NCBI GenBank assembly: GCA_019637615.1
Contig: JAHBVJ010000001.1
Coordinates: 372,001 to 436,000 of the forward strand
Direction: 5' to 3'
Length of the DNA stretch: 64,000 nt
Origin: Anaerolineae bacterium
Lineage (GTDB): Bacteria > Chloroflexota > Anaerolineae > Aggregatilineales > UBA2796
In this document: in pieces, positions 51,614 to 56,179 of the stretch
How the letters are laid out: every line of letters starts with the position of its first letter
Numbering within the stretch: the first letter of the stretch is position 1
The notes under the pieces: model-generated
Told to the model about the DNA's origin: nothing
Databases searched by the model: none
The model's input: only the letters and a program-made list of their open reading frames with translations
Made by a program: the position numbers and the translations under genes

Positions 51614-52450
51614 ATGGACAATGGTTTTAATGATGTGCTGAGCTTGATCGTCGGAGGATTCTTAGCCCTGAGTTATTTTCTGTTAGCGATAGGTGGCACC
51701 TTAGGGCTGCTCAAACATATCCTGCGTAGTTTTGGCTTATTACCCGCCGTATCACCACACGAGCCGAAATCCAAGCTAGTCGTTGCAGAACGTCCAAACC
51801 CGCACGCCACAGACGATAGCGACTACAAATTCGCGCAAGCACATCCCGATCTATTCAAACAGGGAAGTGTGCGCCGCACACAACAACCATCATCCGCATC
51901 ACTAGAACGCGCGAATCGAGCCGTCGAAGAAGCTGGCTTCAAAGCTATGCCGGCTCAACCCACCACGCTGCACATCTATGACATTGGCTTGATGGCAGCC
52001 ACGCTCAGAGACACTGGCAGCAGCTTAAGCGTCGGCTTGCTGCCCTACATCGTCGCCAAATCGGCTTCGAACTACCAGCGCATCCAATTCACGCTGTTCG
52101 ATCATCTCGCCCACACGCGCGGACAGTGGGATCAGCTCTATCGCTTAAACGATCCCTTCAACCTCGCTACTCCGCCTTTCCCGATCCCCATTCCCGTACA
52201 GGACATCGATGATCGCTGGACGCTGGACATGCGCTTGGATGGCCTCTTGTTTGCGGTCTACCATGTCAATCCCGCCGAGATCGTGGATGGCATCACCGAC
52301 GTTGGCAAAATCACAACGCATCTGGGGGCAGATGGCGAGATCGATGAATGGGCGCGGTTAGCCACTGCCAAGTCACCGGAAAATCTCTCGCTCGATGATC
52401 TATTGGACGCGCCAGTTACCGTTACCCGCAAGAAAAAGCGCAACTCTTAA
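51614..52450 (+). CDS. Hypothetical protein with one N-terminal membrane helix
   Basis: 278 residues. A hydrophobic helix at about 10-34 is followed by a polar linker (to about 110) and a soluble domain (about 115-270) with DIGLMAATLRDTG, PFPIPIPVQDIDDRW and a basic tail RKKKRNS. No family is recognised. It lies 318 bases upstream of the E2/JAB/E1 operon on the same strand but is separated by a hairpin (52491-52507), so any functional link is only positional. Confidence 0.65.
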   Translation: MDNGFNDVLSLIVGGFLALSYFLLAIGGTLGLLKHILRSFGLLPAVSPHEPKSKLVVAERPNPHATDDSDYKFAQAHPDLFKQGSVRRTQQPSSASLERANRAVEEAGFKAMPAQPTTLHIYDIGLMAATLRDTGSSLSVGLLPYIVAKSASNYQRIQFTLFDHLAHTRGQWDQLYRLNDPFNLATPPFPIPIPVQDIDDRWTLDMRLDGLLFAVYHVNPAEIVDGITDVGKITTHLGADGEIDEWARLATAKSPENLSLDDLLDAPVTVTRKKKRNS

Positions 52451-52768
52451 GCGTCGATCACGTACTAATTCACGATGGGATCAACGCCATCCCCTAACAC
52501 TTAGGGGGCACACCGTCCCTAGCCAATTCTACAATGTACGAGGCTTATGAATCGCTGTATAGTTACTAGTATTGGGTTTTTCACCCTTAAAAGCAGTGTC
52601 AATCAAGGTTGGCAGCGCTTAGCCTGCCTTGGTACTATCGCATTTTATTGTGATCGTACAGGTATGGCACGGCCAAAGTGAGCATAGGTCGCTATTGAGC
52701 GTCGAATCAGGTTCTCGACGTTTACGCAATAAATGAATGTATTTGGTAGGACGGTACGGAGAAATTCC
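52451..52768. other. Gene-free region upstream of the E2/JAB/E1 operon
   Basis: Holds a hairpin, CCCCTAA/TTAGGGG (52491-52497/52501-52507, 3-base loop), probably ending the upstream gene, and a possible promoter. No ORF of note. Confidence 0.4.
52609..52638 (+). promoter_or_regulatory. Candidate promoter for the E2/JAB/E1 operon
   Basis: TTGGCA (52609-52614), 18-base spacer, TACTAT (52633-52638). Moderate match; leader of about 125 bases. Confidence 0.35.
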
Positions 52769-53218
52769 ATGAGTGAATGGTGGGGAACACGGCAGCAGGT
52801 TGCGCCACGGTTACGCGTAGAAGTAGAAGCAATGCGGGCAGCGTTTCAAGATACCTTCAAGCTGGTCGTGCCACAGCTTGGCGGGCCGATCTACTGGTTG
52901 GGCACCATTGAGATCAACTTGGTTTCGGCCTACATGAAACAGCGCGACCATATCCTGAAGATTCTGTATCCCGACGATTTCCCGAATCGCCCGCCGGAAG
53001 CTTATGTCGTGCGTCCCAAGGTCTACAGTGAAAAGCATCAGTTTGAAGATGGTCAGTTGTGCCTGTTCAACCCCAAAGATGGCACGAGCTATGGGTGGAA
53101 TCCGACTAAAGGTACGGCGGTCACTGTCGCGGCATGGGGTATCCAGTGGATCTATGCCCATTACACATGGAAAGCAACCGGCGTGTGGCCCGGTGAAGAA
53201 GAACGTATCGCCCGATAG
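52769..53218 (+). CDS. E2-like (ubiquitin-conjugating fold) protein
   Basis: 149 residues from ATG 52769 (GGAG 9 bases upstream; ATG 52733 lacks one). It shows the E2 order of elements: N-terminal helix, strands to ILKILYPDDFPNRPPEAYVV (the YP-x-x-FP-x-x-PP turn, 67-80), then EKHQFEDGQLCLFNP with Cys98 as candidate catalytic cysteine and His90 at the place of the E2 HPN-like residue, and a helix with GTAVTVAAWGIQWIYAHYTW. Short, with no C-terminal extension. Eukaryotic-type E2s carry an activated modifier on Cys. The JAB and E1-like genes follow at 9 and 11 bases, so a conjugation or deconjugation pathway is strongly suggested. Confidence 0.85.
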   Translation: MSEWWGTRQQVAPRLRVEVEAMRAAFQDTFKLVVPQLGGPIYWLGTIEINLVSAYMKQRDHILKILYPDDFPNRPPEAYVVRPKVYSEKHQFEDGQLCLFNPKDGTSYGWNPTKGTAVTVAAWGIQWIYAHYTWKATGVWPGEEERIAR

Positions 53219-53227
53219 GAGCGTGGC

Positions 53228-54340
53228 ATGAACAAATACTACAACCTTGCCCTCAATCGCGCTCAATTGCCCCGTCTGACGCTTTCGCAGCGCGTGATCG
53301 ACAAAATCGTCGCCAACGCGCTGACCTATCCCACTGAAACGGGCGAAAATTTGGTGGGGTTAGCCGTCAACATACCGGGGCGCATCGAGCCGGATATGTA
53401 TGTCCTTGACACCATCGCGCCTGATGACAGTGCTGTGCGGCGCGGTGCCTATTTCGAGCAAGGCGACGATGTGCAAGGCGAGATTTTTAACTGGTATGCC
53501 GATAACTGGGAAGAATTCCGCGAACGCCGCCGTCATTCCTACGGCAATGCCATCGGCGCGAAGTGGGATGTGCCGCTCGCGAACGTGGGCGACTGGCATA
53601 AGCATCCCGGCACCCTGACGCATCCCTCCGGCGGCGATTTCGAGACGGCCTATCAGCATGTCTTTGACGACAAGGAAGGCGAACCGCAGATTCTCGTCAT
53701 CCTCGCTACCGTCTGGGATCGTGCCTACGCCAACGCCGACGAAAGTGTCGATCCTGAAACGCTAATCGGCATCACTGAGCATACCAAAGAGATCGACAAG
53801 CCGCGCCCGCTGAAGATTCCAATCACCGATGACACCTTGGTGCGCATCGATTTCTGGTACATGAGCCGCAAGACGCGCCGCTTTGTCCGTCTCGCGCCCA
53901 TCGTCACCGAAGATTCGCTGCTGCCCAATTTGCCGCCTGTGAGTTGGCATGTCACCAATCAGGATCGCTTACGCAAAGAATTAGAGTCGTTGACTGAAGA
54001 TGGCTACAAAGTGCTGCGTCTGCAAGGCTTCAACGCCGATAATGTGCCGCCGCTGGAAATCTGCCTACAAGTGTTGCGCATGACGGGCAAGTACGTTTAC
54101 ACCATCGTGACCAAGGCCACCTATCCTGCCGAGCGCCCCGTGATTCGCTATGCGCCTATCGAGAGCATTCCGGATAACACGCCGCACATCTTCGCGCCGA
54201 TCTGGGCACAATCGCAGCCCGTGCCGGAAGATTGCTATCCGACCGATCCGTGGCAACCGGACAGCTTGATGGTCGATTTATTGCGTATGGTTGAAGTAAA
54301 ATTGAAACAAAAATTAGTGGAAAAAGCGCCCGCCAAATAA
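53228..54340 (+). CDS. JAMM/JAB metallopeptidase with C-terminal E2-fold-like region
   Basis: 370 residues. The N-terminal JAB domain (about 18-180) has the JAMM zinc site: Glu40 (TETGENLVG), His124 and His126 with Asp137 (HKHPGTLTHPSGGD). JAMM proteins remove ubiquitin-like tags or trim modifier precursors. Residues about 235-365 have no metal motif but resemble an E2/RWD fold: a YTIVTKATYPAERPVIRY turn-strand pattern like the E2 YP-x-x-x-P region, Cys336 in PEDCYP and a final helix after WQPDSLMVDLL. So it may be a JAB-E2-like fusion; this second domain is my inference. It lies between the E2 and E1 genes. Confidence 0.86.
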   Translation: MNKYYNLALNRAQLPRLTLSQRVIDKIVANALTYPTETGENLVGLAVNIPGRIEPDMYVLDTIAPDDSAVRRGAYFEQGDDVQGEIFNWYADNWEEFRERRRHSYGNAIGAKWDVPLANVGDWHKHPGTLTHPSGGDFETAYQHVFDDKEGEPQILVILATVWDRAYANADESVDPETLIGITEHTKEIDKPRPLKIPITDDTLVRIDFWYMSRKTRRFVRLAPIVTEDSLLPNLPPVSWHVTNQDRLRKELESLTEDGYKVLRLQGFNADNVPPLEICLQVLRMTGKYVYTIVTKATYPAERPVIRYAPIESIPDNTPHIFAPIWAQSQPVPEDCYPTDPWQPDSLMVDLLRMVEVKLKQKLVEKAPAK

Positions 54341-54351
54341 CTGGAGCAATT

Positions 54352-55266
54352 ATGACGGATTCACACTGGGATCGTGTTGAGCGCTATTTAGGACATGATG
54401 CGCTGACCCAGCTTTCCAAGAAGAAAGTCGCGATCATCGGGCTAGGCTCTGGTGGTGGGTTTGTGGCGCAATCGCTGGCGATGAGCGGCGTCGGGTCATT
54501 CGTTTTGATTGACAGCGACGAATTGGAACACGCCAACGTGGTACGTCACGTCGCGGATATACGCTATGTCGGCAAACCCAAGGTCGAGGCCGTTGCCGAA
54601 CTCATCCACTACCGTAACCCGAACGCACAGGTCGAAGCAGTCAATGGTCGGATCGAGCAGCACGGCGACAAATTAACAGGTGCCGATCTGGTGATTGCTG
54701 GTGTCGATGGTGAACAATCCAAGTACGTCATCAACGGTCTCTGTCGCGCCAAAAATCTGACGGCGATTTATGCGGGTGTCTACGAACGCGGTGAAGGCGG
54801 CGATGTCGTGGTCATCTATCCATCAGGCAGCGGCCCATGCTATGCTTGTTGGGCGGATCAACTGCGCGAGGACATCAACGAGGCCAATCCCGGCGAGACC
54901 CAACTGGATTATGGGATGATCGGGCCGGATGGTACCATTGCGGCGGAACCCGGTTTGTGGCTGCATGTGGCGCGCGTCGCATCCGTACAAGCGGATTTGG
55001 CGCTCAACGAATTGTTGAAGGGGCAGCCAGTCCATCGCGACTATCCAGCGAACACGGTAATCTTAGCCAATGTCGCGCTCGAAGTGATGGAAGGCTTGAT
55101 CTTGCCGCCGTACAGTGCCCAATGGATCAACGTTCCACGCAACCCGCATTGCATGGTCTGTGGGACGGGCGAGGAGGCTGCCAAAGCGCTCTCGCTCGAT
55201 GAACTGGTTAGCGACTTGGCGGCGAGTGATGAAGACCGCCAACAGATGGAAGACTCTCAAGCTTAA
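54352..55266 (+). CDS. ThiF/E1-like adenylating enzyme
   Basis: 304 residues. Rossmann nucleotide site GLGSGG (30-35), Asp54 in LIDSDELE, Asn62 and Arg65 in ANVVRHV, Lys75 and Asp119 in AGVDGEQ: all E1/ThiF/MoeB ATP-site residues. Two CxxC pairs, Cys163/Cys166 (CYAC) and Cys267/Cys270 (CMVC), form the structural zinc site. The remaining Cys131 is not at the usual catalytic position, so thioester formation by this protein is uncertain. E1-like enzymes adenylate the C-terminus of ubiquitin-like proteins. It is 11 bases after the JAB gene and 13 before the small orphan. Confidence 0.92.
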   Translation: MTDSHWDRVERYLGHDALTQLSKKKVAIIGLGSGGGFVAQSLAMSGVGSFVLIDSDELEHANVVRHVADIRYVGKPKVEAVAELIHYRNPNAQVEAVNGRIEQHGDKLTGADLVIAGVDGEQSKYVINGLCRAKNLTAIYAGVYERGEGGDVVVIYPSGSGPCYACWADQLREDINEANPGETQLDYGMIGPDGTIAAEPGLWLHVARVASVQADLALNELLKGQPVHRDYPANTVILANVALEVMEGLILPPYSAQWINVPRNPHCMVCGTGEEAAKALSLDELVSDLAASDEDRQQMEDSQA

Positions 55267-55279
55267 CTAGAGGTATCTG

Positions 55280-55528
55280 ATGACTGACAATACAAATACG
55301 CCCCCCGATGTGCCGGATGACAACAACGCCGCGCCACCTGATGGGCAGATGAACGACCGCATTGATCGGTTAGCTGGTGAGCCAGCCCCCGACATCACGC
55401 CGGAGGAATTTTCTCGCTTGCAAAAGCTCGGTTCGCTCAATCTCGATTCGCGCGGACGCATCATGCTCCACCGTGAAGACGGCTCCGATCCCGGTGTTTC
55501 AGTGCGTAAGCGTCGTGCATGGTATTAA
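55280..55528 (+). CDS. Small orphan protein (82 residues) of the E2/JAB/E1 operon
   Basis: An acidic, Pro/Asp/Asn-rich and probably disordered N-terminal third (MTDNTNTPPDVPDDNN), then a helix (PEEFSRLQKL) and a short strand segment (LNLDSRGRIMLHRED), ending KRRAWY. No Cys, no beta-grasp pattern and no terminal Gly-Gly, so it is not an obvious ubiquitin-like modifier and not Pup-like (no GGE/GGQ end). AGAGGT lies before ATG. It sits tightly between E1 and NUDIX genes (13 and 3 bases), so it is likely co-expressed and could be a modifier, substrate or adaptor. Confidence 0.7.
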   Translation: MTDNTNTPPDVPDDNNAAPPDGQMNDRIDRLAGEPAPDITPEEFSRLQKLGSLNLDSRGRIMLHREDGSDPGVSVRKRRAWY

Positions 55529-55531
55529 TTC

Positions 55532-56179
55532 ATGCTCCCGATCTCCGTTGACGATGTACGCCGTGCGCTAAACCTGCCAGACTTTGATCCCCACGCAGCT
55601 CAACTGCGCATGGCTCCTCGTCCGCGTCCTATCCGTCGTCCTGATCGCCCCGGACAACCTCGCCTCGGCGGTGTCTTGATCCTGCTTTACCCGCGTGATG
55701 GTGAACTTTACTTCGTGTTGACGCAGCGTCCCGAATATAATGGCGTCCACAGCGGGCAGATCAGTTTGCCGGGTGGCAAGCATGAAGGCGACGAAACCAT
55801 GATCGACACCGCGCTGCGGGAAACGTGCGAAGAGGTCGGCGTGTGTGAAGGCATTGAGGTGCTAGGCACATTGGCGGAGTTGTACATCCCGCCGAGCGAT
55901 TTTGAAGTGCATCCCGTCGTTGGCTACATTCCACAGCGTCCCACGTGGCACCCTGACGCGCTCGAAGTCGCTGGTATTATCGAGACACCGCTGCGACTTT
56001 TGTTCGATGACTCCATCAAAGGCAATGAGGCTGTTTTCCGTGCCGATGTCAATATGACGCTCAACATCTATTTCTATCTCATCGAAGGCCGTAAGGTGTG
56101 GGGAGCCACTGCTGCCATCCTATCCGAGTTCGAAGGGCGACTCCGTGCCGCCTTGAACCTCCCCTTCACCGCTGTGTGA
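55532..56179 (+). CDS. NUDIX hydrolase, CoA diphosphatase-like
   Basis: 215 residues. The Nudix box (82-104) reads GKHEGDE then REtcEEVGV, close to GX5EX7REUXEEXGU. Just before it is VLTQRPEYNGVHSGQISLPGG, matching the NuCoA motif of CoA pyrophosphatases (NudL/YeaB-like). It would hydrolyse CoA or related diphosphates to 3',5'-ADP and phosphopantetheine. It begins 3 bases after the orphan gene, last in the operon. Whether it serves the E2/JAB/E1 pathway or only hitch-hikes is unknown. Confidence 0.88.
   Translation: MLPISVDDVRRALNLPDFDPHAAQLRMAPRPRPIRRPDRPGQPRLGGVLILLYPRDGELYFVLTQRPEYNGVHSGQISLPGGKHEGDETMIDTALRETCEEVGVCEGIEVLGTLAELYIPPSDFEVHPVVGYIPQRPTWHPDALEVAGIIETPLRLLFDDSIKGNEAVFRADVNMTLNIYFYLIEGRKVWGATAAILSEFEGRLRAALNLPFTAV

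Follow-up and report, generated by a model that had tools for sequence, protein, structure and literature searches.

A chromosomal E2–JAB–E1 operon inherited through most of the Aggregatilineales, with a small orphan protein as a candidate modifier

Several kinds of bacterial operon combine E1, E2 and JAB functions, and those in the literature compared here are either sporadic or linked to defence. In the case of the type II cyclic oligonucleotide-based antiphage signaling system (CBASS), these functions are supplied by Cap2, an E1–E2 fusion with a catalytic E1 cysteine, and by Cap3, and the system also has a CD-NTase and an effector (PMC10097602, PMC11153139). The Bil system (BilABCD; PMC11354881) has E1, E2 and JAB as separate genes, together with the tandem ubiquitin-like protein BilA and an E1 composed of an inactive half, an active half and a cysteine domain. 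In the operon types 6a–6e of Iyer et al. 2006 (PMC1779556), E1-like, E2-like and JAB genes occur together sporadically; either E1 is fused to JAB or E2, or the operon includes a small beta-grasp protein with a C-terminal Gly. Inactive RWD/E2-like domains are found in type 6e. Bub, mentioned in PMC13373217, is a further bacterial E1–E2-type conjugation operon, often located beside CapW, CapH and CapP, or CapK and CapS regulators and scattered over diverse bacteria. Here, an E2–JAB–E1 operon is described at positions 52769–56179 of the window, i.e., the whole 64,000-nucleotide stretch (G000:C1:372001-436000) of a bacterium of the order Aggregatilineales (Chloroflexota). The operon is probably a housekeeping variant of the bacterial E1–E2–JAB systems. 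Its layout was not found described in the literature compared, which does not extend to the primary papers on Bub or to later E1/E2 family surveys, and no priority is claimed.

Five genes are packed on the + strand with gaps of 9, 11, 13 and 3 bases, encoding an E2-like conjugating enzyme (52769–53218), a JAB/JAMM protein (53228–54340), a stand-alone E1/ThiF-like enzyme (54352–55266), an 82-residue orphan (55280–55528) and a NUDIX hydrolase (55532–56179). A first-pass annotation of this DNA had placed the same five genes here, and their locations as well as the E2, JAB and E1 families were confirmed. It had also stated that the layout departs from that of Bil and that a CD-NTase, an E1–E2 fusion and a recognisable beta-grasp modifier are missing, and these statements agreed with the present results. 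Unlike Bil, the operon contains no BilA with two ubiquitin-like domains, its gene order differs, its distribution is not sporadic, and its E1 is a 304-residue single-domain protein without the inactive half and the cysteine domain. Unlike type II CBASS, E1 and E2 are separate genes without a crossover cysteine in E1, the JAB protein bears an extra domain, the distribution is vertical and not mobile, and the locus has neither an effector nor a CD-NTase; no SMODS match was obtained anywhere in the organism's own genome (85% complete), and the genes of the operon belong to other families. In contrast to types 6a–6e, each of the three enzymes has its own gene, the JAB protein carries a fused, probably RWD-like domain, and the small protein does not belong to the beta-grasp kind.

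Most Aggregatilineales have received the operon by vertical inheritance, and its gene tree agrees with the taxonomic families. Eight families of the order were sampled. Among 101 relatives, E2 was detected in 86, JAB in 87 and the orphan in 84, and E2 and JAB were both present in 66 of the 69 good genomes. Five of these families carry the operon almost without exception; E2, JAB and the orphan are all missing from the sampled genomes of the other three (f92, f95 and f96). In the tree of E2, JAB and E1, f1 (the family of the window), f93, f94 and f97 each form a clade and are set apart from f2 by one branch. The order E2–JAB–E1 is intact in 84 of 92 distinct loci, far above chance, and no E1 was detected in the remaining 8, at least some of which stop at a contig end. 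The first-pass annotation had regarded the five genes as one unit and had named conservation of their order as a check; the E2–JAB–E1 order is indeed kept, whereas the NUDIX gene is dispensable and a membrane protein family represented upstream co-occurs with the operon. A scan of 84,980 species gave 133 encoded E2 relatives, and the best 80 of these were all Chloroflexota-type (two named Aggregatilineales) apart from one labelled Bacteroidetes. The search of plasmids gave a single distant E2 match with 27% identity, and the sporadic, mobile distribution of a defence island was not observed. This vertical inheritance contrasts with the sporadic pattern of the first-described types (PMC1779556), and the retention of an E1–E2–JAB set across most of an order suggests a lasting role in the cell.

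In the case of E2, the start at 52769 was preferred over an alternative longer one at 52733 because homologues start near the WWG motif. The protein matched many PADLOC E2 profiles, the best at 7.8e-13, and Pfam Prok-E2_B only at 0.15, and when its relatives were combined in a profile, the alignment with UBE2L3 ran through the active-site cysteine. This putative catalytic residue, Cys98 in DGQLCLFNP, is invariant among 27 aligned homologues, and the DGQLCLF-type motif was found in 92 of 92 loci (91 by pattern and the last by eye). The E1 consists of a single ThiF domain (3e-32) with a C-terminal SLDEL motif; GLGSGG and both CxxC pairs are retained in an alignment of 25 sequences, and its ability to adenylate is read from the ThiF fold and these retained residues. 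The solved structures nearest to it are MccB (6e-19) and UBA5 (2e-17), together with TcdA and MoeB. MccB acts on the C-terminus of a short peptide. A crossover cysteine is absent, as 0 of 78 E1 sequences have Cys between CYAC and EPGL, and LDYG stands in its place in 76 of the 78. Cap2 and BilD employ a catalytic cysteine (PMC10097602, PMC11153139, PMC11354881); in the present pathway, we infer that the acyl group would pass directly from the acyl-adenylate to the E2 cysteine. The sole other ThiF-family protein found in the genome, a MoeB–rhodanese fusion (G000:C10:51863-52570), has a normal crossover cysteine (PSCAEGG).

The JAB gene adjoins E2 in conserved loci, and its product contains a JAB domain at approximately residues 14–200 (E40, H124, H126, S134 and D137) and a C-terminal domain at residues 234–368 (53927–54331, + strand). 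Prok-JAB was matched at 9e-5, slightly below its curated cut-off. The AlphaFold model, with a mean predicted local distance difference test score (pLDDT) of 87, aligned with BRCC36 (Z 15.2, 150 residues, root-mean-square deviation (rmsd) 2.9), Rpn11 (Z 14.5, 151 residues, rmsd 3.0) and Cap3 (Z 13.2, 141 residues, rmsd 2.6), in agreement with the fold expected from the initial reading. The window has an intact JAMM site. Among 30 aligned relatives, E40, H124, S134 and D137 are invariant and H126 is variable; the second His of HxH was found in only 12–13 loci, namely those of f1, one deep f2 branch (L082) and one locus of unassigned family, and it is replaced by Gln in 76–78 loci. A change of His to Gln is a usual inactivating change of JAMM enzymes, and PDB entry 5cw5 carries the name QSQ mutant. 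The C-terminal domain has a predicted topology of one helix, four strands and two helices and was aligned with the E2 profile by hhalign (E 1e-4, probability 56%), and sequence searches of Pfam and PDB gave no significant match to it. It is probably an E2/RWD-like domain without the cysteine; this assignment rests on the predicted topology and the modest profile match because the fold search with the whole protein was filled by the JAB domain.

The orphan is no accessory gene but the most rigidly conserved element of the operon and a candidate for the missing modifier; roles as modifier, adaptor and acceptor were all considered. A disordered N-terminus is followed by a conserved C-terminal core of about 50 residues (50–52), which runs from GExAP to KRRAWY (residues 77–82; 55508–55525, + strand), and this end is invariant in 76 of 76 distinct orphans. 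The tail after KRRAWY has 0–6 residues in 72 of 75 orphans. No Pfam or NCBIfam match was obtained, the one PADLOC match was at chance level, and the low-confidence model (pLDDT 66) has two short helices and no beta-grasp fold. Of the 46 tails with two or more residues, 38 open with a small residue (A, G, V, S, T or C), a count uncorrected for relatedness. The fixed end and dispensable tail resemble those of ubiquitin-type modifier precursors by analogy, and they would equally fit a C-terminal docking motif. The idea that many proteins bear KRRAWY as a common C-terminal tag was rejected, as the DNA pattern matches essentially the orphan alone, approximately once per genome.

The orphan lies directly 3' of E1 in 59 of the 92 loci, and the comparison of orphan and JAB across the relatives gave 83 genomes with both, 13 with neither and 5 discordant. 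When relocated, the orphan was retained, as observed in G401, G240, G492, G468, G445 and G479. Better evidence of linkage than the co-occurrence is that the genes are adjacent in separate families and that the relocated orphan has survived. As a separate observation, an RHS-type polymorphic-toxin-like open reading frame (ORF) in G402 (L116:4579-4671, + strand) contains an orphan-like segment, VDEAGRIRVGRGDQPDFGASLRRRRAWY, followed by SDAEF (E 7.8e-7). The segment sits at the start of the C-terminal region of the ORF, with its AWY end at a possible domain boundary. An RHS match in G475 was judged from its reading frames to be due to chance.

The reading favoured here, with a probability of roughly 40%, is that the operon encodes a chromosomal, vertically inherited conjugation pathway of Aggregatilineales that serves ordinary physiology and not mobile defence, and that the orphan is the likeliest activated protein. 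The E1 would adenylate a protein at its C-terminus. Lacking a cysteine at the usual place, it would pass the acyl group straight to Cys98 of E2, which would move it onto a target, possibly at the membrane. The JAB protein would bind the conjugate and, where the JAMM site is intact as in the window, remove it. The activated protein would most likely be the orphan, a small protein that is not of the beta-grasp kind and whose mature form would end in ...KRRAWY. In type II CBASS, E1/E2 conjugation is already known for a protein without the beta-grasp fold, the CD-NTase (PMC10097602). The more exact proposal is somewhat unlikely as a whole: most of the order would have a fixed ubiquitin-type pathway for housekeeping, in which the disordered KRRAWY orphan is the modifier and the Cys-less E1 loads E2 directly. 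Such an E1 with a dedicated non-ubiquitin-like partner would make it testable whether a ubiquitin-type cascade runs without the ubiquitin fold.

Several results weigh against the orphan as the activated protein. Its last residue is not conserved, and a Tyr end would be unusual because Cap2 needs Gly or Ala at the C-terminus and does not accept large residues such as Trp (PMC10097602). The JAB protein fits poorly as a trimmer of the tail because the orphans of Gln-type relatives are still tailed. The tail counts are uncorrected for relatedness, and in 26 of 75 orphans the stop region coincides in part with a possible start downstream. Ala or Gly after AWY was rejected as the conjugated residue, since this overlap partly explains it; the excess of small residues persists in longer tails, again uncorrected for relatedness. 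JAB occurs without a detected orphan in four genomes, one of them only 69% complete, and the reverse was found in one. Moreover, the presence of the operon genes tracks the clade boundary, and the co-occurrence therefore represents few independent events.

Second in probability, and a tentative but serious contender, is a pathway that conjugates an unlinked beta-grasp protein, either MoaD/ThiS-like or of an undescribed kind, with the orphan as an adaptor or acceptor; the orphan may, e.g., be modified on its only invariant lysine, K77, or hold E1, E2 and the target together. An invariant internal motif followed by a variable tail would also suit a docking or acceptor motif, and archaeal MoaD-type modifiers that are shared with cofactor synthesis are known (PMC4443979). 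MoaD/ThiS proteins were found in nearly all genomes of the order, but they are equally frequent in families without the operon, and those that were read are mostly MoaD–MoaE fusions. ThiS/MoaD was therefore rejected as a linked modifier, as its presence does not track the operon, and YukD was set aside for its sporadic occurrence (15 of 101 genomes above the cut-off). None of the beta-grasp families searched (MoaD/ThiS and YukD) tracks the operon, these being a part of all beta-grasp families.

A reading without any protein conjugation is improbable. In it, the orphan would be a peptide substrate whose acyl-adenylate, formed by the E1, is used for peptide tailoring or sulfur transfer, as with MccB, TcdA or MoeB. 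The nearest structures of the E1, its missing crossover cysteine and the small size and rigid end of the orphan would agree with such a role. However, the E2 cysteine and its surrounding motif are kept everywhere, the JAB gene is always beside E2, and there are no constant biosynthetic genes beyond the optional NUDIX and methyltransferase-like genes.

The least probable alternative is that the operon serves anti-phage or stress defence as a variant of Bil, CBASS or Bub: the enzyme classes are identical, E2 and E1 match PADLOC profiles of such systems, and a cousin type in another class is sporadic (two clear matches and one weak match in 60 genomes), but housekeeping is favoured because the organism's own genome has no SMODS CD-NTase, only 6 of 61 relatives have one and plasmids gave the one distant E2, and the operon, which has no beta-grasp modifier, occurs almost throughout five of the eight families by vertical inheritance, which also weakens the comparison with defence systems drawn at first.

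The cousin loci L011 and L012 lie in another class of Chloroflexota. They share an E2 with the DGxLCL motif, a JAB with an RWD-like region and a separate E1 without the crossover cysteine, but they are sporadic, differ in gene order and have extra membrane proteins. At L012:3789-11999 and L011:4680-11673, E2, JAB and E1 are accompanied by an SPFH/band-7-like protein and several transmembrane (TM)/TPR membrane proteins with repeated RWD/E2-like regions, all assigned by reading and not by profile. An ORF of 65–66 residues directly before E2 ends in ALKPQRWFA or VLKPQRWFA with a short tail. The orphan hidden Markov model (HMM) did not recover these small ORFs; the hhalign score of the orphan against them was above all 150 shuffles but came from nine C-terminal columns only. 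The resemblance is one of appearance and position and is not significant by HMM. In several other Chloroflexota, a stand-alone E2-like gene adjoins a nucleotidyltransferase-like gene, with no E1 or JAB seen beside it (L013:7894-9395, L014:7564-9065, L015:7537-9193, L246 and L247).

The NUDIX hydrolase is a frequent but optional neighbour, being next after the orphan in 41 of the 59 loci with the orphan after E1 (41 of 92 overall). It matched its family at 4.8e-12 and was CoA-pyrophosphatase-like (PRK10707-like, 5e-23), the latter under the curated cut-off. A protein-L-isoaspartate methyltransferase-like gene was observed between or beside the orphan and NUDIX genes in many f2 and f94 loci (L059, L064–L068, L074–L076, L081 and L084).

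Upstream of E2, a membrane protein with one predicted TM segment (51614–52450, + strand) is a divergent member of a family with a SLxxLL tail, which reads SLDDLL here. The tail is invariant in an alignment of 25 members, which have one or two apparent TM segments. The family was found in 85 of the 101 relatives, usually in two copies, and is absent from the families without E2; its genes adjoin E2 in f1, f93, f97 and others and lie elsewhere in f2. As the E1 tail bears a similar SLxxL motif, the E1 and the membrane proteins may use a common docking partner, which is a guess. Outside the window, a tandem pair of SLxxLL membrane proteins (G000:C1:479866-481529) resembles the family more closely than the window's own copy does.

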